Positions 19,983 through 55,998 of a stretch of 64,000 bases of DNA are shown here, piece after piece (within the stretch, counting starts at the first letter, position 1; each line of letters starts with the position of its first letter). The stretch spans positions 2,790,001 to 2,854,000 of the forward strand of contig NW_024468249.1 in the NCBI RefSeq assembly GCF_002104995.1, read 5' to 3'. The notes below the pieces were generated by a model. The model had not been told where the DNA came from, ran no database searches, and saw nothing but the letters and a program-made list of their open reading frames with translations. Source of the stretch: Linderina pennispora. Lineage: Eukaryota > Kickxellomycota > Kickxellomycetes > Kickxellales > Kickxellaceae. The position numbers and the translations under genes are program-made.

Positions 19983-20372
19983 ATGCAGCAGCATCCATAT
20001 GAGCTCTACCAAGAATCACTAGGTCAACCTTTTAAGAGCCCACTCTACTGAGCCAGCGAGCTAGGAAAGCACCTTACCAATACCTCCAATACTCAATTAG
20101 CTGACCAAGGCATGCTTGGTGCCATATGAATTATTTTAGAAGCTGACCCGCTCCTCACAGGAAACACTACTGCTTTAGGGAACAGTGCCGGGAGCACAAT
20201 GACTAAACCCACCTGCTGCCTGATTTTTAATACCACAGCACTGCTTGCTAATGGCAAATTATCAGCTGGCCAATCATGACAAATTGCCTTCTGCGATTAT
20301 AACAAGTTACTAGCTGTTAGTCAGACAGCATCTACTATTAGTATTCAATTTGTAGCTGCACCTAGTATATAA
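19983..20372 (+). pseudogene. Decayed ORF relic B, left arm
   Basis: A 130-codon frame from ATG 19983 to TAA 20370-20372, the same length as the right-arm copy (55999-56388). It begins MQQHPYELYQESLGQPFKSP and includes ILEADPLLTGN and CCLIFNTTALLANGKLSAG. Internal stops are TGA codons after ATA and TCA, as expected from CGA-to-TGA change, plus one after TAC. The terminal TAA is part of the TATA box of the downstream flavodoxin gene. Resembles the start of a retroelement gag-like ORF only in general character. Confidence 0.5.
20366..20372 (+). promoter_or_regulatory. TATA box of left flavodoxin gene
   Basis: TATATAA, 138 bp upstream of ATG 20510, conserved as TATATAA on the minus strand at the mirrored position in the right arm (about 55999-56005). 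Confidence 0.6.
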
Positions 20373-20509
20373 GCCCAGCATCTGTTCCCGCTGTCTGGCT
20401 TTCGACATCAACTTACCCCTATAAACAACTCGTGCAGTATCACTATATCAACCTGCTCTCCCCTTCTTTTCTGCAGCTTTTTTATACACAATCACTTACC
20501 ACAACAAAA

Positions 20510-21118
20510 ATGGCTCTCCCCAAGGTTTTCATCATCTCCTACTCGACCTACGGCCATATCCATACTGTTTCACAGTCAATTAAAGAGGGACTCGAGAAGA
20601 CTGGTCTGGTTGATATCGAGCATTACCAGTTCCCAGAGACACTCCCAGATGAAGTCCTTGGCAAAATGCATGCAGCGCCCAAGCCAAATATCCCTGTCAT
20701 CACTGTTGACAAGCTGACTGAAGCTGACGGTTTCCTGTTTGGCTTCCCAACCCGCTTTGGTGCAGCACCCGCTCAGGTTAAGGCACTGTTTGATGCCACT
20801 GGCAGCCTGTGGGCCAAGGGGGCCCTGTACGGCAAGCCTGCTGGCATTTTCTTCTCTACAGGCTCACAGCATGGTGGGCAGGAGACAACCGCATTCTCCT
20901 TCCTGCCCAATCTGGCACACCATGGCATGATCTACGTGCCTACTGGATTCCGTAACCAGAATCTGTTTGACAACTCGGAGGTTGTTGGCGGGTCGCCCTG
21001 GGGCACTGGAACTGTTGCTGGTGGCGATGGCTCCCGTCAACCTAACGAGAAGGAACTGTCTGTGGCTGTGACACAGGGCGAGGAGTTTGCCAAGGTCGTT
21101 GCCCGCCTCTCGGCTTAA
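20510..21118 (+). CDS. Flavodoxin-like NAD(P)H:quinone oxidoreductase (WrbA/Pst2 family), left copy
   Basis: 202-aa FMN-dependent two-electron quinone reductase, expected at the plasma membrane/eisosome or cytosol, protecting against redox-cycling quinones. The N-terminal phosphate-binding strand-loop is KVFIISYSTYGHIHTVSQSI. FGFPTRFGAAPAQVKALFD and the WrbA hallmark GGSPWGTGTVAGGDGSRQP (near residue 165) are intact. Length is standard for the family. I start at ATG 20510, where homology begins, rather than at an upstream in-frame codon. The right-arm copy differs by three residues (P/S, N/D, E/K), so both copies look functional and the duplication recent. It has a TATA box and lies head-to-head with tRNA-Ser, across relic B. 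Confidence 0.9.
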   Translation: MALPKVFIISYSTYGHIHTVSQSIKEGLEKTGLVDIEHYQFPETLPDEVLGKMHAAPKPNIPVITVDKLTEADGFLFGFPTRFGAAPAQVKALFDATGSLWAKGALYGKPAGIFFSTGSQHGGQETTAFSFLPNLAHHGMIYVPTGFRNQNLFDNSEVVGGSPWGTGTVAGGDGSRQPNEKELSVAVTQGEEFAKVVARLSA

Positions 21119-21346
21119 CTAATTCAACACATGCTTTTTATTGTGTGCCATCTCATGTGTAAAACAATAGATGAAATGAAAAAAATATCGGTCTAATCAT
21201 CGTCTTGCTGAACATAGAGGGTCTAGGGACATGGGCCTTGTAAAAGTACAGGCTACCATACGACATGCGCTGGCCATTGGAGATATATACGCTAGAAGCA
21301 AATGTTTGCTGAAGATGTATTACTGGTGTGCTATGGAACAGCTGCT

Positions 21347-22088
21347 TTAGTTTTTGAGATGGATATAGTTGAATGCACTCTTGTGGACAGTGCGTGTGCC
21401 GTACTTGTGGCGCTTGTAGTTGTATTCTTCAATGGTGACCATATCTCCCGAGACGCTGGAGACCCACACGACGTGGCCGTATGTGCTGCCGCGGTCAGTC
21501 TGGCCCACTGCTCCTGGAGCTGGCGTGTCATTAACCTGTGACACCCGAGGCGCGTGCTGCGTCATCCCACTGGTTGGCATTGCCCCATGCATTGCCCTTG
21601 TAGCGGTTGTGGAAATCGATGCCCAGACGCGAGTTAATGCGCCAGGCAACAAAACTGACACACTGGCATGAGTAGTACCGCCACTTGTCGACAATATCAC
21701 AGTTGCCGTTGTACGGGTAGTCATCACCCATTGGACCTGCCGACCCAGGGTTGGTGTTGCCAGAGGGACCAGGGGTTCCAGGGTCACCACTGGACGCATC
21801 GCACTTGCCAACAACATAGTTACTGGTTCCGGTCTGGACATAATAGTCGGCAACATAGCAGCCGTCCTGGGTCTTGCCCCACAGGGAGTCGCCCCTGATT
21901 GTCTCGCCTTCGGTTTGGCAGGAGAGAGTGACGTCGTCACCACGGCTGTATGTGCGGACAACGCTGTTGCTGGTGCCAGGACCGGAGCGGCAGTTGACGC
22001 TGTCTCCGTTGATGGCATAGCCGGAGACTAGCTGAGACGATGAGAGGAGAGCGGAAACGCTGAGCGTGGCAATGGTGGAGAGCTTCAT
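21347..22088 (-). pseudogene. SH3b-CHAP secreted hydrolase, left copy, frameshifted
   Basis: Nearly identical to the intact right copy (54129-54869) but with one extra base at about 21534-21541: GTCACAGGTTAATG where the right copy has GTCACGGTTAATG. The frame reaches TAA after 185 codons. The predicted product keeps the signal peptide, SH3b domain and catalytic Cys but loses the catalytic His (GHVVWV) and the last 60 residues, so it should be inactive. The remaining codons downstream are otherwise perfectly preserved in the new frame, so the break is very recent or a sequence error. TATA-like TATATAA and an ATCT tetranucleotide run (22187-22200) lie upstream, as in the right arm. Confidence 0.8.
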
Positions 22089-22709
22089 TTTCGGGTGTAG
22101 GTGTATGTTTTTTGTTGTGGTCTGGAGCCTTTTCGATGGAGGTATCTACAGTGGATTATATACCCATCTCCACCAGCACGCACCGAATCTATCTATCTAT
22201 TTTTAGCAGCGCGTCGGTATTGCGCTAGGCTCCAGCAGGTTTGTTTGCTTTAAGATATGCAACTGCGTTGCCCTGTTTCTGCAAGAAACCTGGGCAAGCA
22301 GCCCGATGTGTCTTTGGCACAAAAGAAAGAGTGCAACTCGGCATCATGCAGCTTCTGATGATACGTGAGAGAAAGCTATTTTCAGACCATGCATGGCGGC
22401 ACACCAGACAGGTTTGTTTGTCAAAACGTTGCATCAACACGCTACTGCTACTAACCAAGCTACACAATTCTACGACTACGCTGTCTGTCTTATTTTTAGA
22501 TCATGGGCCTGCAGGACCACAGGCTGTCTTTTGTAAGCAGGCTGTCAGGAACATGTATTTTTAGCTGATGTTCCCGACATGCATTGATCTTCGCAAATGG
22601 GGTTTAGAAAAAGAAAAAAAAAACCAGTCGGTACCCAATGTGCAAATGTGGTGGCCACGTTGGTCCTAAAAAGACAAAGAAGGGGCGACCCGGGCCAACA
22701 AAAAACAAT

Positions 22710-27501: not shown

Positions 27502-29995
27502 TTACAAATACTGCTGCGACTGGGTGTGTGAGACGTCTTGCTGCATGGTCTGGGACCGGCTGAGCATGGGCATCATAAACCCCTGCGGCTGTTGCTGCTG
27601 CTGCTGGCCCAAGTTGTAGATCGGGGATGGCTGTGTCGACATTCCAACTAGGCCTGTCAAAGCTGATTGAATATTGGCCAAGTAGCTTTGTTGTTGCTGC
27701 TGGTGCTGCTGCTGAGCAGACGGCACAGGACTGATAGGCCCTGACGGCGTGTGCAGCGCATACATGGACACTGACTTGTTCATCGATGGTGCATCCTGCG
27801 GCTGTGCCAGGCCACACGAAGAATTGTCATCAGGGTTGGCAAAGTATCCGACCAGATTCAGGATATCCTGGTTCAGGGTCTTTGCGGAGCTAGGATCCGA
27901 CAGCAGCAGCTGATCAATTGATGGTGCGTAGAACCCCGGACAGCTGGCGTTCTGCATATTGTTCTGACTGGCGCTGGTGGCGAAGAACGGCAGAGACGTC
28001 GTTGGTGTGATGCTGGAGGATTCCTGGGGTGTGCAGTAGCCGGAGAACATACCACCCATTGGTATGATGTCAGGGCGTGGCGTGGTGGCCAAATCGGGCA
28101 GCGAGGGCATCGTAGGCCGCCGAGACCCGCGGCTGGTACGTGGTCGGTTGGGGCAGCGTGGGCGGCAGCAGGTCCAGGAGCGGCTCAGCAGACAGAACCT
28201 GCATGTCGGTGGGCATCGAAGGGAATGCCTCCAGTGTGCTTTCTTGCACTGGCTGCTGCTGGTTGGGAACCGGCTGCAATGGATGTGGGACAGGGGTGGA
28301 CGAGGACTGCAATGGAGTGATCAAGGTGTGAGGCATAGTTACAGAACTGGACAAACACCGGCGAGTGGAACACAGGCGCACTGAATAGTGGGTGCGTCTG
28401 AATGAGCTCGGACCACTGTGGGTCAATCAGCAATGCGGCAGTGTCCTGGATCAGCACACGGGCAAACTCGCGCATCACTTGAAGGCTAGCAAGCTTCTCA
28501 GTCTTACCAGCCCCCTTGGCCGATTGGCGGACTCCAGCAGGGCTAGGGCGGTCCGGCATGGTCATGGCGCGGGTGCGAGTCTCAAGGTTCGATGAAAACT
28601 TTTGCAGCCATGGGAATACACCATAGACCAGCTGATCGGGCACCGGGACCTTGGTGCGTGCCAGGGGCTTGTATGTGTCAGGGTTGTTTTCCTGGGGCGG
28701 TGACTGGCCGGAGATCACCAGCGCCAGGTCAAGGAAGGCTTGAGAGCGCGAAACGCCCTCGCGGCGATGGTGGATGCGCCATTTGGCAAGCCTCACGACC
28801 TGCGTGGCTGACATGCCCAGCGGCTCACCCATGATCTTGTCTCGCGCACGCACCACATGCATGTCGGGAGTGTAGTTGATGTTAGACGCCTGGTAAGGCG
28901 GACATGTTGGCGTGTGAGATGGAGTGCGCGATCGCCTGCACGCGGTCCTCGTCGGACTGGAACAGGACCGTTGGCCTGGTCGTAAGACTGGAACAGGGCC
29001 TGCCCCAGCCACGTGCCAAGATCGGCGAGTGAGGCGTTAGCCGACGCTGTCGGCTGCGCATGCCACTGCATGAAAATCAGCAAAGAAATGGCATACCATG
29101 GGCACAGAAGCGGATTGGTGTGGCGCGCAACACCGATTTCAGCAAACCGTCCAACGTGCTGGGCTGACTCGGGCGACGCCTTTGAATTCGAGTAGCGGGA
29201 TCGAGTCGAGCTGTTCGTGTGGCCGGTTGTTGACCGTCAGGCTGCTGAGCCGTAGGTGCAGGCGGTGGTTGCCAGGGATCCATGTCGAGGCACCCAGTAC
29301 ATAGTGGGCCCATGCCTGCACGCCGACGTGCGGGTCCATGGCAAAATACCGCTGCACAATCGACATCTCCTGCTCGCTAGTGACGGCAAATGCCACATGC
29401 TGCCGTTCCTGCTGGGACCGCGGGACCTTGGACTGCTGCGATGCCTCACGGATCGCGTACTTGGTGCTCAGGATAGCTGAGGGCATGCAGCGGGTTCTCC
29501 TCGTCGGGCTTGCGGAACCGCCGCCAGAGTGCAAGGATCCCGCCCTCGACGTAGCGGCGCGCCGACTGATATGACATGGAGCCACCGGCGCTGGCGTTCC
29601 TGTGTCTGGTCGGTGCTACGCCGTGGGTTGCGCTTTGAGGGTAGCCTCGGAGTCTGTGTTGCCCACTTGAGGAAACCAGAGAGCTTCTCCTCATTTACCA
29701 GCTTGTAGTTGGGTTCGGGCAGTGTGCGGCAGTACCGGAACCACGCGCACACGTGCGTCACGTATGCCTTGATCGTCGTTATGGAGCATTTCTGCTCGGG
29801 ATCGATGAGCGATTTGGCTAAGATTACGTCCTGTGAATGGCCTTGGTACAGGTCTTTGTTCTTTATGAATTGCGCCCGCTTGGCCGTCGGTGCCAGGTCA
29901 CTGGCCGACACCACGCGCCGCTTAGCTGTCCGGGTTCCAACAGAGAGCGGAGCAATGGATTTGAAGCGCTTTGTCAAATCTCGGGTATCATCCAT
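27502..29995 (-). CDS. Ndc10/Crypton-type tyrosine-recombinase-fold DNA-binding protein, seven +1 frame breaks
   Basis: Starts at ATG 29995. The N-terminal core-binding helix bundle is SITTIKAYVTHVCAWFRYCR and LVNEEKLSGFLKWATQ. The catalytic-fold region shows the Ndc10_II pattern: VARHTNPLLCPWYAISLLIF, later VVRLAKWRIHHRREGV, then DQLVYGVFPWLQKF. The C-terminal third is Gln/Pro/Ser-rich. The coding frame changes seven times (about 29640, 29490, 29140, 28980, 28910, 28330, 28110), each time by one extra base. Removing seven bases gives 829 codons ending at TAA 27504-27502. The relatives include yeast centromere protein Ndc10 and Crypton mobile-element recombinases. Whether this is a host DNA-binding protein or a Crypton relic is open; the absence of in-frame nonsense substitutions favours a maintained gene. 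Confidence 0.6.
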
Positions 29996-31852
29996 GGCTG
30001 TATGTGTGAGGCAAACGGAGAGAAGCAGATTCCACGAAAATACGTTCTTTAGGACAAAGGAAAAGGCTGGAATAGATAAATGTACAGATTGGTTGCTATG
30101 TAACAAGGGGTACAGAGATACTGGATTGAGAAGAAAATAGACTATGTGACAAGGAAAGGGGTCAGGAGAAAAGTGATAGGCAGGAGTTGACTGTCTGGGT
30201 GCGAACAGCAGGTAGGTTAGAAAAAAGTCAAGGGCAGGGGCGATGGCAGCCAGAGGAGAAGAGGGAAGCTGGTGTTTGGACAAGACAATAGTTGTGGAAT
30301 ATAGGGTGCAGGAGTAGTGATCTTTATACCGATACTGCCAGATCTTTTCCCATGCAGGTAAAACCAGCTCCGGCGAAAGGCCCGCCATTTTTAGGTCCCG
30401 GAACCTGTCTGCGCAATGGGCTCCTCAATCACTATTTCGTGTCTTCAAACGTAAACATTGAAGCTTGTCACACTCTAATTTTCGCGCCCGCCCCCTTTTG
30501 CGGCGATAGCGTGGTTGCAGCGGCGGAGTATAACTTGAGCTGACGCCTACAGCGGTGGGGGTGAGAGGGTATAATTTTCGCTGTTTTGGACCACTGGGCC
30601 CAGTGTACCACAGACAAACATCCCGCCCTTCCTGGCGCTCGGCTCCCACCAGGTTTGTTGTGATTTTTGTTTTGTACCAGCTCAGCTTTAGCATCGCCAT
30701 ATTCAGCTCCCTGCCAGGGTCTCCCCCGATCCATTGCATGCCACGCACACTTGGCTCATACTATCCCAACCATCCCGATCTATTCTTCTCTCCTGGTGTT
30801 TCGCTCCATGGGCCTGTTCCTTTTCAGTCTGAGTTCCGGCGGTTGGAATATGCTATCGGGGGCATGGGGGTGATGTACTATTGAGGCCCGCATGAAAAAC
30901 GTAAACAAAGCGAAAGTACTGTCGCCTTGACTTGAGGTTGTACCGATTCTCAAAAAAACTTTTTTCGATGGATCGGTGCAGCAAATTTCAGTCCAGTGGT
31001 GGGAAGCATGGGGAAGGGTGCCATTAGACATTTTTGTCGCACCGTTACTCATCCAACGCACAATTCTGACATATCGTGGCAATGTTGTCGATTTGCGCCG
31101 AGCAAGATAATTCGACGTATAGCACAGATAAGCAGCTTCTTGCCCCGACTGACGTGCCGACAGAAGTAGGCAGCCCTTCAAGCTGGTTTGGTTATTGGTT
31201 GCCTCTTGGCGAGGTGTTGTGTCTTTTTCCGAGTTGCACCGCACATGACGCGCACATCGCTCATATCCCCACAAAACATTCCGCTGCAGACTTGTTATAC
31301 CGCTTATTGGAGACATTATACTCCTCCATAGGCAACATGGCCAAGGTCTGCCAACGGCCTAAATAAAACAAAGCAGGTTGTCCTGCCTTACACCAGCCCG
31401 AGAGCATTCTAGAAAACTAAACCCACTCTTGCTGTGGAGCCATCAGCATGGGCGCAGTTATCGAAACCCCAGTCAGTAAGGTATTATTCGAGTGGTGCGA
31501 GCCGCACACAAAAGATCCACAGCTAGGCTGGTGCCGAACTCTTGAAAGTAGATGTGACCGAGAAACTATTGCTGACCAGCTCAGAAAAAGTGCCTCCACA
31601 CCACCAGTTTGTTGTGCTGGCAATACAATGCTATTGCACAATTGGGTAGCTTGTCCCTGCGCCTACGCTTGTTCTGTTGGCGGTGGGGTCTGTAGACATA
31701 CTCTGCCCATGCCGTGACGCTGGCCACCCTGTTTTCCAATTGGATGGCTAATTCAATGGGGGAGGGGAGACTGTTTGTACAATGCAAAATTGGATGTCAT
31801 ACCCTTGACCGGCTTCGCGTACGTGGTTGTTTTGACGCATCGGCTTTTTTTT

Positions 31853-39360: not shown

Positions 39361-40033
39361 ATGCGCTCGCCTATCTCAAGCATCGTCCTAGCCTATCGCT
39401 GCTCTCACCTCGCTGGCCAGTGCTGCTGATCTAAACGTCCCGGCCTGCCCTGCAACTGCAACTGCCTCGTTCAATCAGGCTATCCCTGATCTTGCGCCAT
39501 GCCCACAGACTACTGTTGACCTCTGCTACACGTCTACAGCTCTGAACTTGGTGTTCACAGCATACGGTGAGACCAACTTCTACTTTGATCCCTCGCAGAC
39601 TACTAATGGCGACATCTGGGCCTACGAGGTCATGGAGGCATTCATCTACAAGGGAACCGACAATCCTCAGACCTATTTCGAGTACGAAGTGAGCCCGAAC
39701 AACGTCACCTACAATGCGTTTATTTTTAATCCGTCGCGCACCCGCGCAGCAGGTACTCCGTTCGATCATGCATTCGTCTCAAACCCATTCGGCGACGGCT
39801 TCAAGGTCACCACGGCACTGGATAAGCCCAACAACAAGTGGATTTCGACCTCATCGATCCCGCTCGCCCTGTTCAACGCTGAGAACCCAAAGGGCACCAA
39901 CTGGCGCATGAACTTCTTCCGCACAGTCACTGGCCCAACCACTTACCCGGACCAGCAGCTGTGCGGCTGGAAGAACACGAACGCAATGAATTTCCACATT
40001 ACTCCTTTCTTTGGAACCGTCGCCTTTGTTTGA
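39361..40033 (+). CDS. Secreted CBM9-like carbohydrate-binding protein, copy A, one frame break
   Basis: Tandem paralog of the gene at 41878. ATG 39361 starts MRSPISSIVLA. One extra T at about 39394 must be skipped to read IAALTSLASAADLNVPACPA, a normal signal peptide; the rest is uninterrupted to TGA 40031-40033 (223 aa). The fold is that of the CBM9/DOMON-like family: VFTAYGETNFYFDPSQTTNG, DIWAYEVMEAFIYKGTDNPQ, YFEYEVSPNNVTYNAF, PKGTNWRMNFFRTVTG, and FFGTVAFV at the C-terminus. It presumably binds sugars outside the cell. Cysteines pair in the N-terminal linker and QLCGW. Compared with copy B the central 160 residues are about nine-tenths identical, with the signal peptide and linker diverged. 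Confidence 0.7.
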
Positions 40034-41877
40034 ACACCTTACTTGAAGACGCAGCCTATGCATTTGATAATACATTACACTTTCTTAATCCACACAGCAA
40101 TGGCTATATATGCTACCCAAAGTTTGTTGCTTGAGAGGACGACAAACCAGCTCACTTTCGGCTGGTGGCTCCATGTGCCTGTCCCTTGTGCTATTGTGTA
40201 CTCGATTCTTAGGAGGATCGCATCGGCTATCTGGATGTAATGCCGTTATATTGGGCGGGGTGTAAGCCGTATGGTCACCACTACACCTCTTGTGTCTTTT
40301 TCTCAGGATGCAGCGCTCGGTGAGTTCTCCAAGAGGGGCATATTTTTGCTGTATGTGGGGACCATCCCCCAGGGGTACCAACCCTTTACCCTTTTTGGCG
40401 CGGGGGAACCTCCGCACTGTGCTCAACTGACGATTTACCTGCAGAATATGTACACTTGCTTGGTACTGCGTCGGCACTCCTTGAGAATCGATAGGCAGCA
40501 GATGGGCTTTGTTTATTTTGGTAAGCATTCCGCATTCTGTTGGCAAACTCGCGCTTTTGTGCAAGCATTTTTGTGGGGCTTTCTGCACTTCACGCATAGA
40601 GGGATGGGGCCAAGATAGCAGCGGGTAGTTCCAGGCTGCATGCATACTTCGCATACCTCCGAACAATATGTGGCCATTCTTGGCGCAGAGGCGAGCAATT
40701 GGCCGTAGTCAGCTGTGCGCAAAGATGGCAGGGGTCCAGCAGCAAATACGACCTTCAAGGCTGAGCAGTCATGTGGATGGCACGATCACAAAGAGCCATT
40801 TTCACACACATTGTCCACTGCATTTCCACCAGGCACTGAGTGTATAGATGATTTGTGGATCGAGGAAAGGCGAGGAGCTATCCTCGCCTATTTCTGCAAT
40901 TGCCAGGTGAACCCCGGCCAGCCAGTGACCAACCAATACTCGTGCATTCGCTTTTTGATACTGGTTTCTCCTCTGAACAAGACCCTTGGAATCCTACAGG
41001 TGGCCAGAGCGCATAGATGTTTGCCCGCTCTGATTGTACTCCAGATCTTCAGGCAATAAATGCCATGTCCATAAGGAGCGCAAGAGTATGTCCACTCTCG
41101 TCGAATGCATTCGTATATATCACGTCGGTTTCAGGCTTCCAGGCACGGTAGCAGGAGAATAATAACGCTCAACACTTTACTTTTACCAACGAATCCTGCA
41201 GGAACCCTCATTCGTGTTATGTTCTCCGTATTTGATATTCTGCAGTTCGCCACTGATCTACTGTTCTCCTTTGTGATCTTGCAGAATACCAAAGATAATT
41301 ATTAGGCATGAAGGCATGTATGCTCCTTGGCTTGACCTCAAGCTGTGTTTATATTCTGGTAGAACCCGCTCCTTCATTGCCCAAATGTTTTTGCCGTTCA
41401 CAGTTTTAGGTATTCGTTATGTTTGTAAGAATTCTGCAGTTTGTGAGCATACAAAAAGGATAGCAGCCAATCCACAGTTCCGCTGTTTGCAACAACCGGC
41501 GAAGGGACTGCAGTTGCATGCATCGCGTGAGCGGAAGCACTGCCCTTTCGCACCACCTTGTTGGCGGCATGCTGCAAACAGAATAATGTCGCGGGCGTGG
41601 GTGCAATCATGTGTGTCATGGGTTTCCTCCGCTGCTACGAACGCCGTTGAGAGGGCTTGGTAAAGACCTATATAAGGTGGGGAAAACATGGCGTCGTCTC
41701 TCCGCACAAACCACACTCACCACCAGAGCCACCATCTACTCGTCTCTTCTTCCCTCTCTTTATCTTTTACTTAATATAATTCCTACTCAGCCATCGTCGT
41801 GACCGCACCTTTCAACTTGCACACTTGCTATCCGCCGAGCCACTACTCAACCACCCTGCTTATTGTTAATTCCAACA
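40034..41877. other. Intergenic region between the CBM9-like paralogs
   Basis: 1.8 kb. A Cys-rich frame on the minus strand near 40,520-40,680 (ATYCSEVCEVCMQPGTTRCY) is noted but unsupported. A TATATAA at 41669-41675 and a pyrimidine-rich leader precede copy B. Confidence 0.4.
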
Positions 41878-42585
41878 ATGTACTCGCTTACCTCGATCAT
41901 CGCTCTTGGGGCTACCATCTTTGCCGCCTTCGCCAATGCCAATGGTGCCAGTGACAAGCCTTGCCCGCCAACCAAGGCAGATGTTCAAGTGCCTGCCTGC
42001 CCCTCAACAGTGACTGTCAGATTTGACAAGACTATTCCTGAGCAAACTGCATGCCCGCTGACCACTATCGGCCTGTGCTACACGTCTACAGCTCTGAACT
42101 TGGTGTTCACAGCATACGGTGAGACCAACTTCTACTTTGACCCCTCGCAGACTACTAATGGCGACATCTGGGCCTACGAGGTCATGGAGGCATTCATCTA
42201 CAAGGGAACCGACAATCCTCAGACCTATTTCGAGTACGAAGTGAGCCCGAACAATGTCACCTACAACTCATTTGTGTACAACCCGTCGCGAGTGCGCACT
42301 ACGGGTGCGCCTTTCGACCATGCGTTCATCTCTGATCCGTTTGGGGACGGCTTTAAGGTCACCACGGCGCTGGATAAGCCCAACCACAAGTGGGTTTCGA
42401 CCTCATCGATCCCGCTCGCCCTGTTCAACGCTGAGAACCCAAAGGGCACCAATTGGCGCATGAACTTCTTCCGCACAGTTACTGGCCCAACCACTTACCC
42501 GAACCAGCAGTTGTGTGGCTGGAAGAATACAGGAAAAGCCAGTTTCCACATCACCCCTGCTTTCGGGACTGTTGCCTTTATATAA
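41878..42585 (+). CDS. Secreted CBM9-like carbohydrate-binding protein, copy B
   Basis: 235 aa from ATG 41878; an in-frame non-ATG codon lies upstream but homology to copy A and the signal peptide (MYSLTSIIALGATIFAAFAN) fix this start. Cys-rich linker (DKPCPPTKADVQVPACPS). The beta-sandwich has the same signatures as copy A (VFTAYGETNFYFD, DIWAYEVMEAFIYKGT, KGTNWRMNFFRTV, AFGTVAFI). In CBM9-type modules the paired aromatic residues stack on sugar ends; the analogous aromatics here are the Trp of DIWAYE and GWKN, which is inference. Intact, with a TATATAA about 205 bp upstream. No catalytic domain is attached, so it is a free-standing binding protein, possibly a wall protein or lectin-like effector. 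Confidence 0.78.
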   Translation: MYSLTSIIALGATIFAAFANANGASDKPCPPTKADVQVPACPSTVTVRFDKTIPEQTACPLTTIGLCYTSTALNLVFTAYGETNFYFDPSQTTNGDIWAYEVMEAFIYKGTDNPQTYFEYEVSPNNVTYNSFVYNPSRVRTTGAPFDHAFISDPFGDGFKVTTALDKPNHKWVSTSSIPLALFNAENPKGTNWRMNFFRTVTGPTTYPNQQLCGWKNTGKASFHITPAFGTVAFI

Positions 42586-43037
42586 CCCAGTACATTTACC
42601 AGCACCAATAACTATGGAACTTTATTGCAATAATACACTGACAAGAATACTGCTATTGCAAATCAGATTCTGGTGTACTTTCAGCCAACCCTACAACCAA
42701 GTATGCACACATTCCACCCCATGCTTAATCTAGAAACACAATAGATTACATACATGACTCGCTGTCGCTTGATGCACAGGTTGCGCATGTAATAGCTACT
42801 GGGATAGCTTATCCAATGCATGATTATTCTGGATGACACGGACAAATTTTCTGCTCTACGGTTGTGGGACATCTTATTAAAGGTACTAGAAGCACTTTGC
42901 TTGCGATGTGAGCTCGGCTACTAGTCAGCATGGCTCGACACATCGATAAAAGCATCACGGTGAACCGACCATTTGAACATGTCTGATGATTATCAGCGAA
43001 ATGATGACCTTGCTCATCTTCTGTCTCGATAGCCTGC
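42586..43037. other. Downstream flank of the Fanzor remnant
   Basis: 452 bp. No gene. In TnpB/Fanzor elements the guide RNA is encoded at the nuclease's 3' side, so 42800-43037 is where a relic would sit. I cannot identify one by eye. Confidence 0.3.
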
Positions 43038-43800
43038 TCAGCGCAGGCGTTTCAGCGCTGGTTCGCCGCTGCTAGCAGCAGAATCACCTGCAGCTGCAGC
43101 ACGCCTCTTGCGCGGGTTCTTTGTAGCCGCAGTGGGGCAGGGGCATTGGTAATAATGACTACAGAACGGCAGAGCCATCCAGGAATATAGCCTAAACCAC
43201 AGAGTGACTGGAAAATGAGTCTGAAGTTTAGAACTGCTGCAATGTCGCGGTTCAAGAGCCGAGACAAATAGGCCCGCCTGTATTGTGCCATGGCCCGCTT
43301 ACATGACTCGCTTGTACAGCGGAGAAGGCCATGGCACTCTACAGCTGGGTTCTTCGATCTCTGGTAGGGGCACGGGTTGAGAACATGCCGGAATGTCTAC
43401 AGGTGTTAATCTTCAGAGAGTCCAGTAGTTATGAGCTTTATGGAATGAATATGACTAAGGATTGCTGAGGAAAAAAGGGAGGATGGGGCCGTTCCGGCCC
43501 ACGATGTTTATACAGGTGGGGATTTAGATCTGCACATGGTGGCGAAGGGAATGGGGTTGCCCGAATGTCAACAGCAGGGACTTTTCGCAGCAGGACAGGC
43601 ACATCGATGATGCTCGGAGTTCATCAGTTAGATAGACTTTAAAGCTATGGTGGTTGAAATTGATGTGCTATCCCTTGCCGCAAATCGGCGCATGGTGTCG
43701 GACCATCGGTGCACCCCAATTACCCATGACTAGTACTAGATTTGGACTGAACTTGCTCCGCAGTTTCGCAGAAAGCCACCGGTTCCAAATCTGAACACCA
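43038..43800 (-). pseudogene. Decayed Fanzor (eukaryotic TnpB-like nuclease), C-terminal half
   Basis: RNA-guided nuclease family of eukaryotic mobile elements. Reading the minus strand from about 43793: FRILGVQIWNRWLSAKLRSK, then NLVLVMGNWGAPMVRHHAPI, then KVYLTDELRASSMCLSCCEK. The first contains the Fanzor GxW motif; the second carries the RuvC Glu (DEx-R-x-SS) and the first half of the zinc ribbon (C-x2-C). After an insertion (43404-43572) it resumes at 43396: FRHVLNPCPYQRSKNPAVEC, HGLLRCTSESC (second half of the ribbon), then LLNRDIAAVLNFRLIFQS with the RuvC-III NRD...N motif, then a basic tail (KNPRKRRAAA...LKRLR) to TGA 43040-43038. It has an in-frame TAG after GKG, a frame change before the tail, and no recognisable RuvC-I half upstream. 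Not functional as it stands. Confidence 0.75.
43404..43572. mobile_element. 169-bp MITE-like element inserted in the Fanzor remnant
   Basis: Starts TGTTAATCTTC and ends GCCCGAATGTCAAC, flanked by TACAGG and AGCAGG, an imperfect 6-bp target duplication. Removing the element and one flank restores the Fanzor zinc-ribbon frame (CEKSL-x-TFRHVLNP). A relative with the same ends and size lies at 54968-55129. Both share CGCCACCAT-like, GGCC and CCTCAG blocks internally when read on the minus strand. Confidence 0.6.
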
Positions 43801-44424
43801 AGAATGCGGAAGCTGGGTGATTCGCTTATCGGATTGTTGGACCTGCAAAATACGAAGGAGCCAAGATAAGCAGGGCTTTAATATATGGTTCCAAATTCGT
43901 TTTTACCAGTGTTTTTAAGATATATATTTGCCATGGCACGATCTGAATCCATCCGCCAAAAGAGAGAATGCTGTTTTAGGTGTCCACAGAGCAAGTAATG
44001 CATACTCGCTGTGAGGCTCAAAGAAGGTGGGTCCTTTCAAGCAATCAGAAACGTTCTAGCGGACGGTCGGACGCTTTTTAGACTATAATTTCATAAGAAA
44101 AGAAAAGAAGAGAAAAGAGAAAAGAGAGATACAGCAATTATGATATATGGTGTGAATAGAATCAGAGGTAGTGTCTTGAAAAACGATGAAGACGATAGAG
44201 ATGTTGGAGGTATTATGTGGACCAAGTGGATGTGGGGAGGTTAAAAACATGAGCCAGAGAGCGGGTGTTGACTGGCAAATCAGAACTAAGAGCCAGTTAT
44301 CGCTGTGCAATGCAGAACGAGAAAAGAGAAAAGGACCAATGTTCAAGCGCTGAGGTAGAAGGGAGGAAAGAAAACACACTTTCGGTATTGCTGTCCTGCT
44401 TAGAAGCTCCCACTGCTTTAAAAT
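43801..44424. other. Upstream flank of Fanzor remnant / 3' flank of AMT gene
   Basis: Where the Fanzor N-terminal half should be I see no RuvC-I motif or long frame. An A/G-rich run lies at 44090-44130. Confidence 0.35.
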
Positions 44425-53505: not shown

Positions 53506-54054
53506 ATTATTTTTTGTTGACCCGGGTCACTCCTTTTTTGTCTTTTTAGGACCAACGTGGCCACCACATTTGCACATTGGGTACCGACTGGTTTTTTTTT
53601 TTTTTTTTTCTAAACCCCATTTGCGAAGATCAATGCATGTCGAGCACATCAGCTAAAAATACATGTTCCTGACAGCCTGCTTACAAAAGACAGCCTGTGG
53701 TCCTGCAGGCCCATGGTCTAAAAATAAGACAGACAGCGCAGTCGTAGAATTGTGTAGCGTGGTTAGTAGCAGTAGCGTGTTGATGCAACGTTTTGACAAA
53801 CAAACCTGTCTGGTGCGCCGCCATGCATGGTCTGAAAATAGCTTTTTCTCATGTATCGTCAGAAGCTGCATGATGCCGAGTTGTGCTCTTTCTTTTGTGC
53901 CAAAGACACATCGGACTGCTTGCCCAGGTTTCTTGCAGAAACAGGGCAACGCAGTTGCATATCTTAAAGCAAACAAATTTACTGGAGCCTAGCGCAATAC
54001 CGACGCGCTGCTAAAAATAGATAGATAGATTCGGTGCGTGCTGGTGGAGATGGG

Positions 54055-54061
54055 TATATAA
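54055..54061 (+). promoter_or_regulatory. TATA box of the right CHAP gene
   Basis: TATATAA, 68 bp before ATG 54129, preceded by an ATAGATAGATAGATT run that offers GATA words; both are conserved in the left arm. Confidence 0.6.
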
Positions 54062-54128
54062 TCCACTGCAGATACCTCCATCGAAAAGGCTCCAGACCAC
54101 AACAAAAAACATACACCTACACCCGAAA

Positions 54129-54869
54129 ATGAAGCTCTCCGCCATTGCCACGCTCAGCGTTTCCGCTCTCCTCTCATCGTCTCAGCTAGTCTCCGGCTAT
54201 GCCATCAACGGAGACAGCGTCAACTGCCGCTCCGGTCCTGGCACCAGCAACAGCGTTGTCCGCACATACAGCCGTGGTGACGACGTCACTCTCTCCTGCC
54301 AAACCGAAGGCGAGACAATCAGGGGCGACTCCCTGTGGGGCAAGACCCAGGACGGCTGCTATGTTGCCGACTACTATGTCCAGACCGGAACCAGTAACTA
54401 TGTTGTTGACAAGTGCGATGCGTCCGGTGGTGACCCTGGAACCCCTGGACCCTCTGGCAACACCAACCCTGGGTCGGCAGGTCCAATGGCTGATGACTAC
54501 CCGTACAACGGCAACTGTGACATTGTCGACAAGTGGCGGTACTACTCATGCCAGTGTGTCAGTTTTGTTGCCTGGCGCATTAACTCGCGTCTGGGCATCG
54601 ATTTCCACAACCGCTACAAGGGCAATGCATGGGGCAATGCCAACCAGTGGGATGACGCAGCACGCGCCTCGGGAGTCACGGTTAATGACACGCCAGCCCC
54701 AGGAGCAGTGGGCCAGACTGACCGCGGCAGCACATACGGCCACGTCGTGTGGGTCTCCAGCGTCTCGGGAGATATGGTCACCATTGAAGAATACAACTAC
54801 AAGCGCCACAAGTACGGCACACGCACTGTCCACAAGAGTGCATTCAACTATATCCATCTCAAAAACTAA
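54129..54869 (+). CDS. Secreted SH3b-CHAP cysteine hydrolase, intact right copy
   Basis: 246 aa. Signal peptide MKLSAIATLSVSALLSSSQL..SG; bacterial-type SH3 domain at about 24-95 (VNCRSGPGTSNSVVRTYSRG, the NVRSGPG-like SH3b motif); a Gly/Pro linker (DPGTPGPSGNTNPGSAGP); and a CHAP amidase/endopeptidase domain at about 128-246. Catalytic Cys143 lies in SCQCVSFVAW, His205 in YGHVVWVSS, and the third residue probably in IEEYNY. CHAP enzymes cleave peptidoglycan peptides. A fungus has no peptidoglycan, so the target is probably bacterial, and the gene family was probably acquired from bacteria (inference). Strong TATA promoter. The left copy is frameshifted, so this may be the only active copy. 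Confidence 0.9.
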   Translation: MKLSAIATLSVSALLSSSQLVSGYAINGDSVNCRSGPGTSNSVVRTYSRGDDVTLSCQTEGETIRGDSLWGKTQDGCYVADYYVQTGTSNYVVDKCDASGGDPGTPGPSGNTNPGSAGPMADDYPYNGNCDIVDKWRYYSCQCVSFVAWRINSRLGIDFHNRYKGNAWGNANQWDDAARASGVTVNDTPAPGAVGQTDRGSTYGHVVWVSSVSGDMVTIEEYNYKRHKYGTRTVHKSAFNYIHLKN

Positions 54870-54967
54870 AGCAGCTGTTCCATAGCACACCAGTAATACA
54901 TCTTCAGCAAACATTTGCTTCTAGCGTATATATCTCCAATGGCCAGCGCATGTCGTATGGTAGCTAC

Positions 54968-55129
54968 TGTTAGCTTGGGGAATGAGTGGTTATCGAATAT
55001 ATGGAAAAATAACTTCTCAAAATGACTGAGGGGAAGAAGGAAGGCTGGTCGTCTGTCTGGGCCTTTGTACGTATGCGTTTCGGCCTTGTCTATGGTGGCG
55101 CAGGGGGACTCCGGACCCCGAATGTCAAC
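54968..55129. mobile_element. 162-bp MITE-like element private to the right arm
   Basis: Flanked by a perfect 6-bp duplication AGCTAC (54962-54967 and 55130-55135). Ends TGTTAGCTTGGGG and CCCCGAATGTCAAC form a loose inverted pair. The left arm lacks it at the mirrored site (near 21250-21265). Related to the element at 43404-43572. Confidence 0.65.
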
Positions 55130-55253
55130 AGCTACTTTACAGCCATTCCTAGACCTCTATGTTCAGCAAGACGATGATTAGACCGATATTTTTTATTTCG
55201 TCTATTGTTTTACACATGAGATGGCACACAATAAAAAGCATGTGTTGAATTAG

Positions 55254-55862
55254 TTAAGCCGAGAGGCGGGCAACGACCTTGGCAAACTCCTCGCCCTGGG
55301 TCACAGCTACAGACAGCTCCTTCTTGTTAGGTTGACGGGAGCCATCACCACCGGCAACAGTTCCAGTGCCCCAGGGCGACCCGCCAACAACCTCCGAGTT
55401 GTCAAACAGATTCTGGTTACGGAATCCAGTAGGCACGTAGATCATGCCATGGTGTGCCAGATTGGGCAGGAAGGAGAATGCGGTTGTCTCCTGTCCACCA
55501 TGCTGTGAGCCCGTAGAGAAGAAAATGCCAGCAGGCTTGCCGTACAGGGCCCCCTTAGCCCACAGGCTGCCAGTGGCATCAAACAGTGCCTTAACCTGAG
55601 CGGGTGCTGCACCAAAGCGGGTTGGGAAGCCAAACAGGAAACCGTCAGCTTCAGTCAGCTTGTCAACAGTGATGACAGGGATATCTGGCTTGGGCGCTGC
55701 ATGCATTTTGCCAAGGACTTCATCTGAGAGTGTCTCTGGGAACTGGTAATGCTCGATATCAACCAGACCAGTCTTCTCGAGTCCCTCTTTGATTGACTGC
55801 GAAACAGTATGGATATGGCCATAGGTCGAGTAGGAGATGATGAAAACCTTGGGGAGAGCCAT
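55254..55862 (-). CDS. Flavodoxin-like NAD(P)H:quinone oxidoreductase (WrbA/Pst2 family), right copy
   Basis: 202-aa duplicate of 20510-21118, with all FMN-site motifs kept (STYGHIHTVS, GFPTRFGAAPAQVK, SPWGTGTVAGGDGSRQP) and three substitutions (Ser in ETLSDE, Asp in PKPDIP, Lys in QPNKKE). None falls in a flavin-contact motif. Promoter TATA conserved. It is convergent with the CHAP gene across the 162-bp insertion, so the 3' flanks of the two copies differ. Confidence 0.9.
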   Translation of the reverse strand: MALPKVFIISYSTYGHIHTVSQSIKEGLEKTGLVDIEHYQFPETLSDEVLGKMHAAPKPDIPVITVDKLTEADGFLFGFPTRFGAAPAQVKALFDATGSLWAKGALYGKPAGIFFSTGSQHGGQETTAFSFLPNLAHHGMIYVPTGFRNQNLFDNSEVVGGSPWGTGTVAGGDGSRQPNKKELSVAVTQGEEFAKVVARLSA

Positions 55863-55998
55863 TTTTGCTGTGGTAAGTGATTGTGTATAAAAAAAGCTGC
55901 AGAAAAGAAGGAGAGCAGGTTGATATAGTGATACTGCGCGAGTTGTTTATAGGGGTAAGTTGATGTCGAAAGCCGGACAGCGGGAACGGATGCTGGGC

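Follow-up and report, generated by a model that had tools for sequence, protein, structure and literature searches.

The gene remnant on the minus strand of the window (the 64,000-nucleotide stretch of Linderina pennispora DNA analyzed here; contig NW_024468249.1, positions 2,790,001 to 2,854,000) belongs to a family that is, with good confidence, a Helitron1-like transposon carrying a Fanzor1 gene, of which the window holds a dead, internally deleted copy. Fanzor1 genes in Helitrons, multicopy Fanzor families and ghost loci are already in print (PMC3627910, PMC10711439, PMC10432273). Fanzor1 was found in Chlamydomonas Helitron2 (PMC3627910), Fanzor elements occur in up to hundreds of copies (PMC10711439), and Spizellomyces punctatus has 42 Fz and 134 ghost loci, with CA conserved beside Spu-1 (PMC10432273). 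The family described here may help to explain why eukaryotic transposons have kept Fanzors.

Extent and parts of the window copy

The stretch that was first flagged (43038-43800) is part of a longer element that runs from about 42886 to 44088, perhaps to 44122. Its parts are as follows.

42886-44088, minus strand: whole short-type (internally deleted) Fanzor element; the 5' limit is approximate, with weak homology to 44122
44035-44122, minus strand: degenerate 5' terminal sequence, in which 44079-44054 is AAAAAGTGTCCGACCGTCCGCTAGAA with 1 mismatch
43778-44034, minus strand: segment absent from the full-length element, in place of the N-terminal three quarters of Fanzor
43041-43777, minus strand: Fanzor1 C-terminal remnant, from profile/sequence matches, homology to L043 and motif positions
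43766-43749, minus strand: KLRSKF, in the Fanzor1 remnant
43727-43707, minus strand: MGNWGAP, in the remnant
43697-43683, minus strand: HHAPI, in the remnant
43670-43668, minus strand: in-frame TAG, in the remnant
43634-43605, minus strand: YLTDELRASS (E segment), in the remnant
43601-43587, minus strand: CLSCC (zinc ribbon half), in the remnant
43404-43573, minus strand: solo-LTR-like insertion, 170 bp, TGTTGACA...GATTAACA, from sequence and genome matches
43318-43301, minus strand: CTSESC (zinc ribbon half), in the remnant
43252-43211, minus strand: RuvC-III NRD segment NRDIAAVLNFRLIF, in the remnant
43064-43041, minus strand: basic tail EPALKRLR, in a frame that differs from that of NRD
43040-43038, minus strand: stop codon of the remnant, read from the sequence
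42890-43037, minus strand: 3' untranslated region, candidate omega-RNA scaffold, from sequence and alignment to L043
42913-42899, minus strand: Helitron-type terminal hairpin, with two mismatches in the window copy by hand count
42886-42889, minus strand: Helitron-type 3' terminus CTAG, read from the sequence
42864-42885, minus strand: right flank TA + ACCTTTAATAAGATGTCCCA, taken as host DNA

Homology to the full-length element L043 lies at 44122-44035, 43777-43558, and 43402-42884, and homology to the short copy L020 lies at 44088-43558. A TCTTT-rich stretch is found outside the degenerate 5' terminal sequence, and the 3' untranslated region contains a degenerate version of the stem GACACGT/ACGTGTC.

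Several other features of the window were recorded. Tandem paralogs at 39392-40033 and 41803-42585, probably encoding a secreted protein without a Pfam family, adjoin the element. A two-gene segment, nearly identical by eye, is present twice in inverted orientation about 32 kb apart (20366-22145 and 54021-55946); one of its genes encodes a protein of the FMN-reductase/flavodoxin type and the other a secreted protein of the SH3b/CHAP type, for which the match to CHAP falls just below cut-off. The open reading frame at 29468-30424 has no Pfam match, and its C-terminal part is, by eye, what we take to be like a tyrosine recombinase N-terminal domain (Crypton-like).

The window copy is a dead Fanzor1 gene

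The first-pass annotation had read a decayed Fanzor gene from motifs on the minus strand, and each of these motifs was found where it had been placed. The identification was borne out and can be narrowed to the Fanzor1 group. When PDB sequences were searched with phmmer, the 114-aa zinc-ribbon/RuvC-III island (43052-43396) matched Fanzor1 of Parasitella parasitica (PpFz1) at an E value of 3.3e-9, and SpuFz1 at an E value of only 0.38. The 47-aa piece with the E segment, searched by itself, gave no match. A search with family profiles had also been suggested; Pfam returned no Fanzor/TnpB match for the five window pieces searched (one unrelated match was below threshold).

The window Fanzor copy is dead, as had been proposed. 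The frame of the remnant is interrupted by the in-frame TAG, by frame changes, and by the LTR insertion. Compared with intact L043, substitutions at codon positions 1/2/3 number 14/11/7 and 14/10/18 in two ungapped blocks; this roughly even distribution is as expected without selection on the gene. The copy retains the E, the last D, and the Cys pairs. RuvC-I is missing, which is also what the annotation had stated, and homology to the full-length gene starts only at 43777, upstream of MGNWGAP.

An insertion in the gene had been noted at 169 bp; the insertion was confirmed and its length is 170 bp. We read it as a solo LTR, a reading that replaces an insertion of unknown kind and is based on its ends, a near-duplication, and repeated genome matches. 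The insertion starts with TG and ends with CA, and it is flanked by a 5-bp near-duplicated target, CCTGC (43578-43574) and CCTGT (43403-43399). At least 40 other places in the genome match it at 87-93% (40 of 64 candidates scored), and most of the 40 listed matches stop at its borders, 43404 and 43573. Two of the matches (C146:1386074 and C146:1390729) share a strand and are separated by about 4.7 kb, as for an LTR pair. By its coordinates, C146:1386074-1390900 is likely a full-length LTR retrotransposon between two same-strand 170-bp LTRs.

Full-length Fanzor1 genes elsewhere in the genome

The host genome (26.17 Mb in 222 contigs) was searched with the conserved island, a search that the annotation had recommended for finding full-length copies. 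The island protein has at least 150 genome matches, itself included, at 65-100% identity (all 150 scored, from 264 candidates), and of these 150, 13 fall within reading frames that stay open for 800 aa or more. The N-terminal 200 aa has at least 151 genome matches (150 scored of 231 candidates). Twenty regions (L041 to L060) were fetched that had been picked for long open frames, and which therefore give no fraction of intact copies. They contain nine complete ORFs of 857-876 aa, with starts placed at an N-terminal motif common to them; the element that holds one of these ORFs (L052) is 5' truncated upstream of it. The RuvC residues D530, E735, and D802 and the zinc-ribbon residues C742, C745, C778, and C783 are invariant in all nine. 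The RuvC residues were assigned as the counterparts of SpuFz1 D383, E541, and D606 from the profile alignment and the residue list in PMC10432273. The prediction that active elements exist or existed in this genome thus fits what is seen, inasmuch as nine full-length genes with their catalytic residues kept look active by sequence.

A profile of the nine ORFs was searched against the PDB and matched PpFz1 at an E value of 4.6e-85, SpuFz1 at 3.4e-34, and GtFz1 at 0.024. The match to PpFz1 consists of four collinear stretches from profile positions 7 to 824, the weakest with an i-E value of 0.1. This match rules out a zinc-ribbon protein unrelated to Fanzor, a reading that has the unreached Pfam cut-offs in its favor and that we regard as having virtually no chance of being right. 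TnpB profiles stayed below cut-off even with the intact ORFs (PF07282, E values of 0.016 and 0.13; NF040570, E value of 0.52), and this test was taken as nondefining: NF040570 is a prokaryote annotation model, and the control genomes in which PF07282 gave matches were all prokaryotes. A search of the genome with PF07282 gave 0 matches among 65 candidates scored, a search for homologous proteins with one long ORF as the query gave none at an E value of <= 1e-3 among 7999 candidates scored, and two peptide patterns gave 46 stretches in viral contigs, none of them confirmed. Ahead of RuvC-I (residues ~320-500 in L043 numbering), the ORFs of L041 to L052 are rich in alanine over one stretch and include a GGDATGDAV repeat that varies; both lie outside the PpFz1 alignment.

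Across the 36 pairs of the nine ORFs, a set picked for intactness, the pooled dN/dS ratio was 0.32 at a mean dS of 0.084. This ratio argues that the Fanzor protein is in use.

The window copy belongs to a short type

The window copy had been described as a decayed gene. Its death stands, but a simple decay of the full gene does not, since the copy is of a short, internally deleted type that is shared with other copies. The ~260-bp segment between its 5' end and the remnant is absent from the full-length element, present in L020, and partly present in L013. A further copy, L011, has the remnant and the 3' end in common with the window copy and no match to the ~260-bp segment. Loss of the gene front is common to at least two other copies.

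When the 5' part was used as the query, 40 of 40 scored candidates (131 in all) matched, itself included, the other 39 at 70-84%. Judged by coordinates, at least seven of the 39 are closely followed, on their own strand, by a Fanzor island or right end (C36, C185, C1:2945129, C179:1136474, C179:413538, C1:1592335, and C2:717106). Matches at C2:649371, C23:2783, and C1:2110101 adjoin RepHel or Fanzor ends. Because the segment recurs in other copies, upstream of islands and right ends, the missing gene front most likely marks an older nonautonomous subfamily and no private decay. A deletion private to the window copy was ruled out by its sharing with L020 and, in part, L013 and by the repetition of the 5' segment.

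The family has Helitron-type ends and is joined to RepHel units

Full-length copies are about 3.3-3.45 kb long and comprise a 5'-TC end, one ORF of ~870 aa, a conserved 3' region, a hairpin, and CTAG. In the 20 aligned regions, homology has sharp limits at both element ends. The element starts with (A)TCTTTACC and finishes with the hairpin GCTCGC-ATC-GCGAGC, about 8-9 nt, and then CTAG. Among 47 right ends, the hairpin is followed by CTAG in 36, CTGG in 6, CTAA in 1, and other sequences in 4, so that 43 of the 47 read CTRR. Neither TIR nor TSD was seen by eye at the ends of the 20 copies.

The right-end pattern has 221 matches in the whole genome at <= 3 mismatches, and the left-end pattern, which is common to RepHel units, has 143; reversed patterns gave 0 in both cases. 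This excess of right ends over left ends is consistent with rolling-circle transposition. Some family copies are 5' truncated, and in several the ATCTTT unit is repeated at the left. Such (ATCTTT)n units or repeated partial 5' ends were noted at the left ends of L042, L043, L046, L050, and L068 to L072, and L072 and L073, which have the same flank on two contigs, are one ATCTTT/partial-5'-end repeat apart. Tandem Helitrons and multiple 5' termini have been reported in fungi (PMC5148889).

A genome search with Helitron_like_N (PF14214) found six loci of one kind and one other. The second, diverged match is at C68:198243-198650, within a 1989-aa open frame. The helicase part of RepHel matches Pif1_2B_dom over the cut-off, and a helicase probe has 13 genome matches in all, one of which is a distant protein. 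Most RepHel frames have interruptions, and C182 carries a decayed copy without a recognized 3' end. Six 5' ends upstream of RepHel carry the Fanzor-family terminal sequence; two of these share one flank, leaving five sites. Measured from 5' end to 5' end, the RepHel module spans ~5.5-5.6 kb at three of the six loci; the remaining three give 3.6, 10.6, and 18.8 kb. The RepHel 3' end, GCTTGC-ATC-GCAAGC ... CTAG, differs from the Fanzor hairpin by one paired change and occurs eight times at <= 3 mismatches. In all eight cases a family 5' end follows directly (seven were read, and that on C23 was placed by coordinates); on C2, the unit after RepHel is, by coordinates, of the short type. The composites on C157 (~8.9 kb) and C112 both have their two outer ends and differ in their flanks, from which it follows that the pair moved as a unit or arose more than once. 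By coordinates, C23 holds a tandem array of a RepHel unit, a Fanzor unit, and a short-type segment, and in L055 a second Fanzor 5' end directly follows the right end.

The family shows these marks of the Helitron1 group: a 5'-TC, a 3' hairpin followed by CTRR, no TIR (by eye, in 20 copies), and a RepHel with the same ends. RepHel probably mobilizes the Fanzor-carrying copies. Fungal Fanzor1 elements, as far as the sources consulted describe them, are of inverted-repeat, MuDR-like, or Crypton-related kinds, and the window copy could accordingly be pictured as what is left of a Fanzor element that stood alone or moved by cut and paste (TIR type), with no tie to Helitrons. The 20 aligned copies without visible TIR or TSD, the 5' end and hairpin held in common with RepHel units, and the eight junctions out of eight make this highly improbable. 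A TIR/TSD element was rejected on the sharp ends, at which neither was visible by eye, and on the empty paralogous sites described below.

A YA|TA footprint at the insertion sites

The first two bases of the right flank are TA in 45 of 47 distinct right ends (T in 46 and A in 46; the exceptions are TT in L024 and CA in L028), a set in which about four pairs look like duplicated sites. Positions beyond the TA are merely A+T-rich. At 22 left ends, the first A is preceded by T (12 ends), C (7), A (2), or G (1). Pyrimidines thus account for 19 of 22 (p 2e-4; the window background before ATA is 48% pyrimidine), and the A after AT has a p value of 2e-27 against a window background of 24%. The 22 left ends are what remained of 34 rows after 13 were dropped and one (L055) was added. 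The rows dropped were the window copy, L013, and the L049:812 row, as other or decayed types, together with six RepHel-junction rows, one Fanzor-Fanzor junction, and three second copies of one site. In ATCTTT arrays, the A taken as the first was picked by eye, and L030, which is without such an A, was entered as G.

Empty sites were searched for with thirteen joined flank pairs (40 of 103 candidates scored). Empty paralogs were found for L059 (six) and L056 (one), all diverged, with ~2-12 bp differences at the junction; TA is present in seven of seven, with no duplication. Among the L059 empties, TATA is found at the junction in only two of six, and an A directly follows the left flank in about half. 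In a partial paralog of L043, the corresponding bases are AA, not TA. The empties of two copies suggest that the TA is of host origin and are compatible with more than one preinsertion sequence. By analogy with these two copies, the right flank of the window copy, TA + ACCTTTAATAAGATGTCCCA, is taken as host sequence.

The TAM of SpuFz1 is CATA (PMC10432273), and that of PpFz1 was reported as ATN (PMC11423790). The likeness of the YA|TA split to the SpuFz1 TAM suggests that YATA is the TAM and that every right flank serves as a guide. The same footprint could come from the target preference of RepHel alone, with Fanzor as a passenger that has no role in where copies persist, and we give this account close to an even chance. 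Canonical Helitrons insert at A|T, which speaks for it, as does the A+T richness of the flank past TA. Longer target preferences are also found in other Helitrons, such as TTTT in Chlamydomonas (PMC3627910). Against it, a similar CA + TA footprint occurs at Spu-1, an inverted-repeat element of another kind, where it equals the measured SpuFz1 TAM (PMC10432273), and the dN/dS ratio argues for a protein in use.

The 3' region as a candidate omega RNA

RNA folding of the 3' region was ordinary, with z-scores of -0.14 for L044 and -0.69 for the window copy, no better than shuffles. In the named stems, 97.1% of cells are paired versus 96.9% when shuffled and 17-41% when slid. Stem covariation is weak: double changes are seen in three pairs, and the five observed values were each attained in 21-49 of 500 shuffles. 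Rfam gave one match far below the gathering score, which was taken as chance. Divergence among the nine intact copies is 0.048 over the last 165 nt, close to the 0.052 of the 5' untranslated region (eight copies). Conservation is clearly higher only in the last ~110 nt, where divergence is 0.023, versus 0.084 at synonymous sites. This points to constraint near the 3' end of intact copies, in part perhaps due to the Helitron terminus.

The window copy has retained its 3' end and flank and lost its nuclease, the two structural marks of a ghost Fanzor locus, and short copies such as this one resemble the ghost guide loci of Spizellomyces. If an RNA is made, TA + ACCTTTAATAAGATGTCCCA would be its putative guide, by analogy with SpuFz1. 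The short copies, that in the window included, might then be live ghost guide loci whose omega RNAs are used in trans by intact Fanzor. This would fit the retained 3' end and flank, the activity of S. punctatus ghost omega RNAs with SpuFz1 (PMC10432273), and the number of right ends, which far exceeds that of long frames. We consider it improbable in view of the two hairpin mismatches in the window copy and the ordinary folding. In addition, the dead coding part of the window copy looks, by eye, better kept than its 3' untranslated region, which is evidence against a maintained guide function.

Proposed mechanism

A working model can be put forward in which RepHel would copy the element by a single-strand rolling circle. 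The last 100-150 nt (the 3' region) would be transcribed as an omega RNA, with the flank that follows CTAG-TA at the right end as its guide. Fanzor would then cut an unoccupied site that has a YATA TAM and matches the guide, and repair of the cut empty site would copy the element in; an occupied site would be shielded, its YA|TA having been split by the insertion. With its nuclease lost and its right end and flank kept, the window copy would be at most a guide-only locus. As a whole, the model (omega RNA, flank guide, YATA cut, and repair copying) is tentative, and we hold it somewhat more apt to fail than to stand. In its widest form, the composite of RepHel and Fanzor1 would be a eukaryotic single-strand transposon and the counterpart of TnpA plus TnpB, in which each insertion gives rise to a new omega RNA that targets the unoccupied form of its site, copies persist only at YATA, and nuclease-less short copies guide in trans. 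This form we regard as possible and rather doubtful.

In this genome, RepHel abuts a conserved Fanzor1 family whose termini match its own, right ends of the family number more than 200, and the target footprint predicts a specific TAM. Provided that the host can be cultured, what Fanzor does in single-strand transposition could be tested directly.

Comparison with known systems

Among the papers surveyed, few of them from subscription journals, none described a Helitron1-type element that unites a Fanzor1 with RepHel, and none placed a Fanzor in Kickxellomycotina or Zoopagomycota. The closest described systems include CRe-1, CRe-2, and CRe-3 of Chlamydomonas reinhardtii, nonautonomous Helitron2 elements in which, as here, a Fanzor1 gene lies in a Helitron with shared ends (PMC3627910). 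They also resemble the present family in that they occupy many loci, are often 5' truncated or internally deleted, and have 3' ends in excess (PMC3627910). However, they are Helitron2 elements inserted after TTTT, often with TSDs of 7-19 bp (PMC3627910), whereas the family described here is Helitron1-like, with TC...CTAG ends, a YA|TA site, and no TSD seen. Also unlike them, it has one recognized terminal hairpin, and the RepHel unit is physically joined in eight of eight recognized cases.

Spu-1, with SpuFz1, is likewise a Fanzor1 system of many copies in which nuclease-less loci with the 3' end kept are more numerous, and its CA/TA footprint equals the TAM CATA, like the YA|TA seen here (PMC10432273). 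Spu-1 has 30-nt inverted repeats, unlike this family (PMC10432273), and the family profile matches SpuFz1 more weakly than PpFz1. PpFz1 (PDB 9cf0; PMC11423790) is the closest solved sequence relative, aligned in the four collinear stretches; the Ala/Gly-rich profile positions 303-401 and 442-502 are unaligned to it.

In IS200/IS605 elements, an RNA from the right end uses the flank as its guide. Their TnpA and TnpB work in a like manner to what is proposed here, by pairing an HUH single-strand transposase with an RNA-guided nuclease, a parallel drawn in PMC10432273. There, Saito et al. likened Helitron HUH enzymes to TnpA and reported no transposase within the Spu-1 repeats (PMC10432273). In contrast to IS200/IS605, the guide role here is putative, and a eukaryotic RepHel and a Fanzor1 are carried in two modules that lie end to end.
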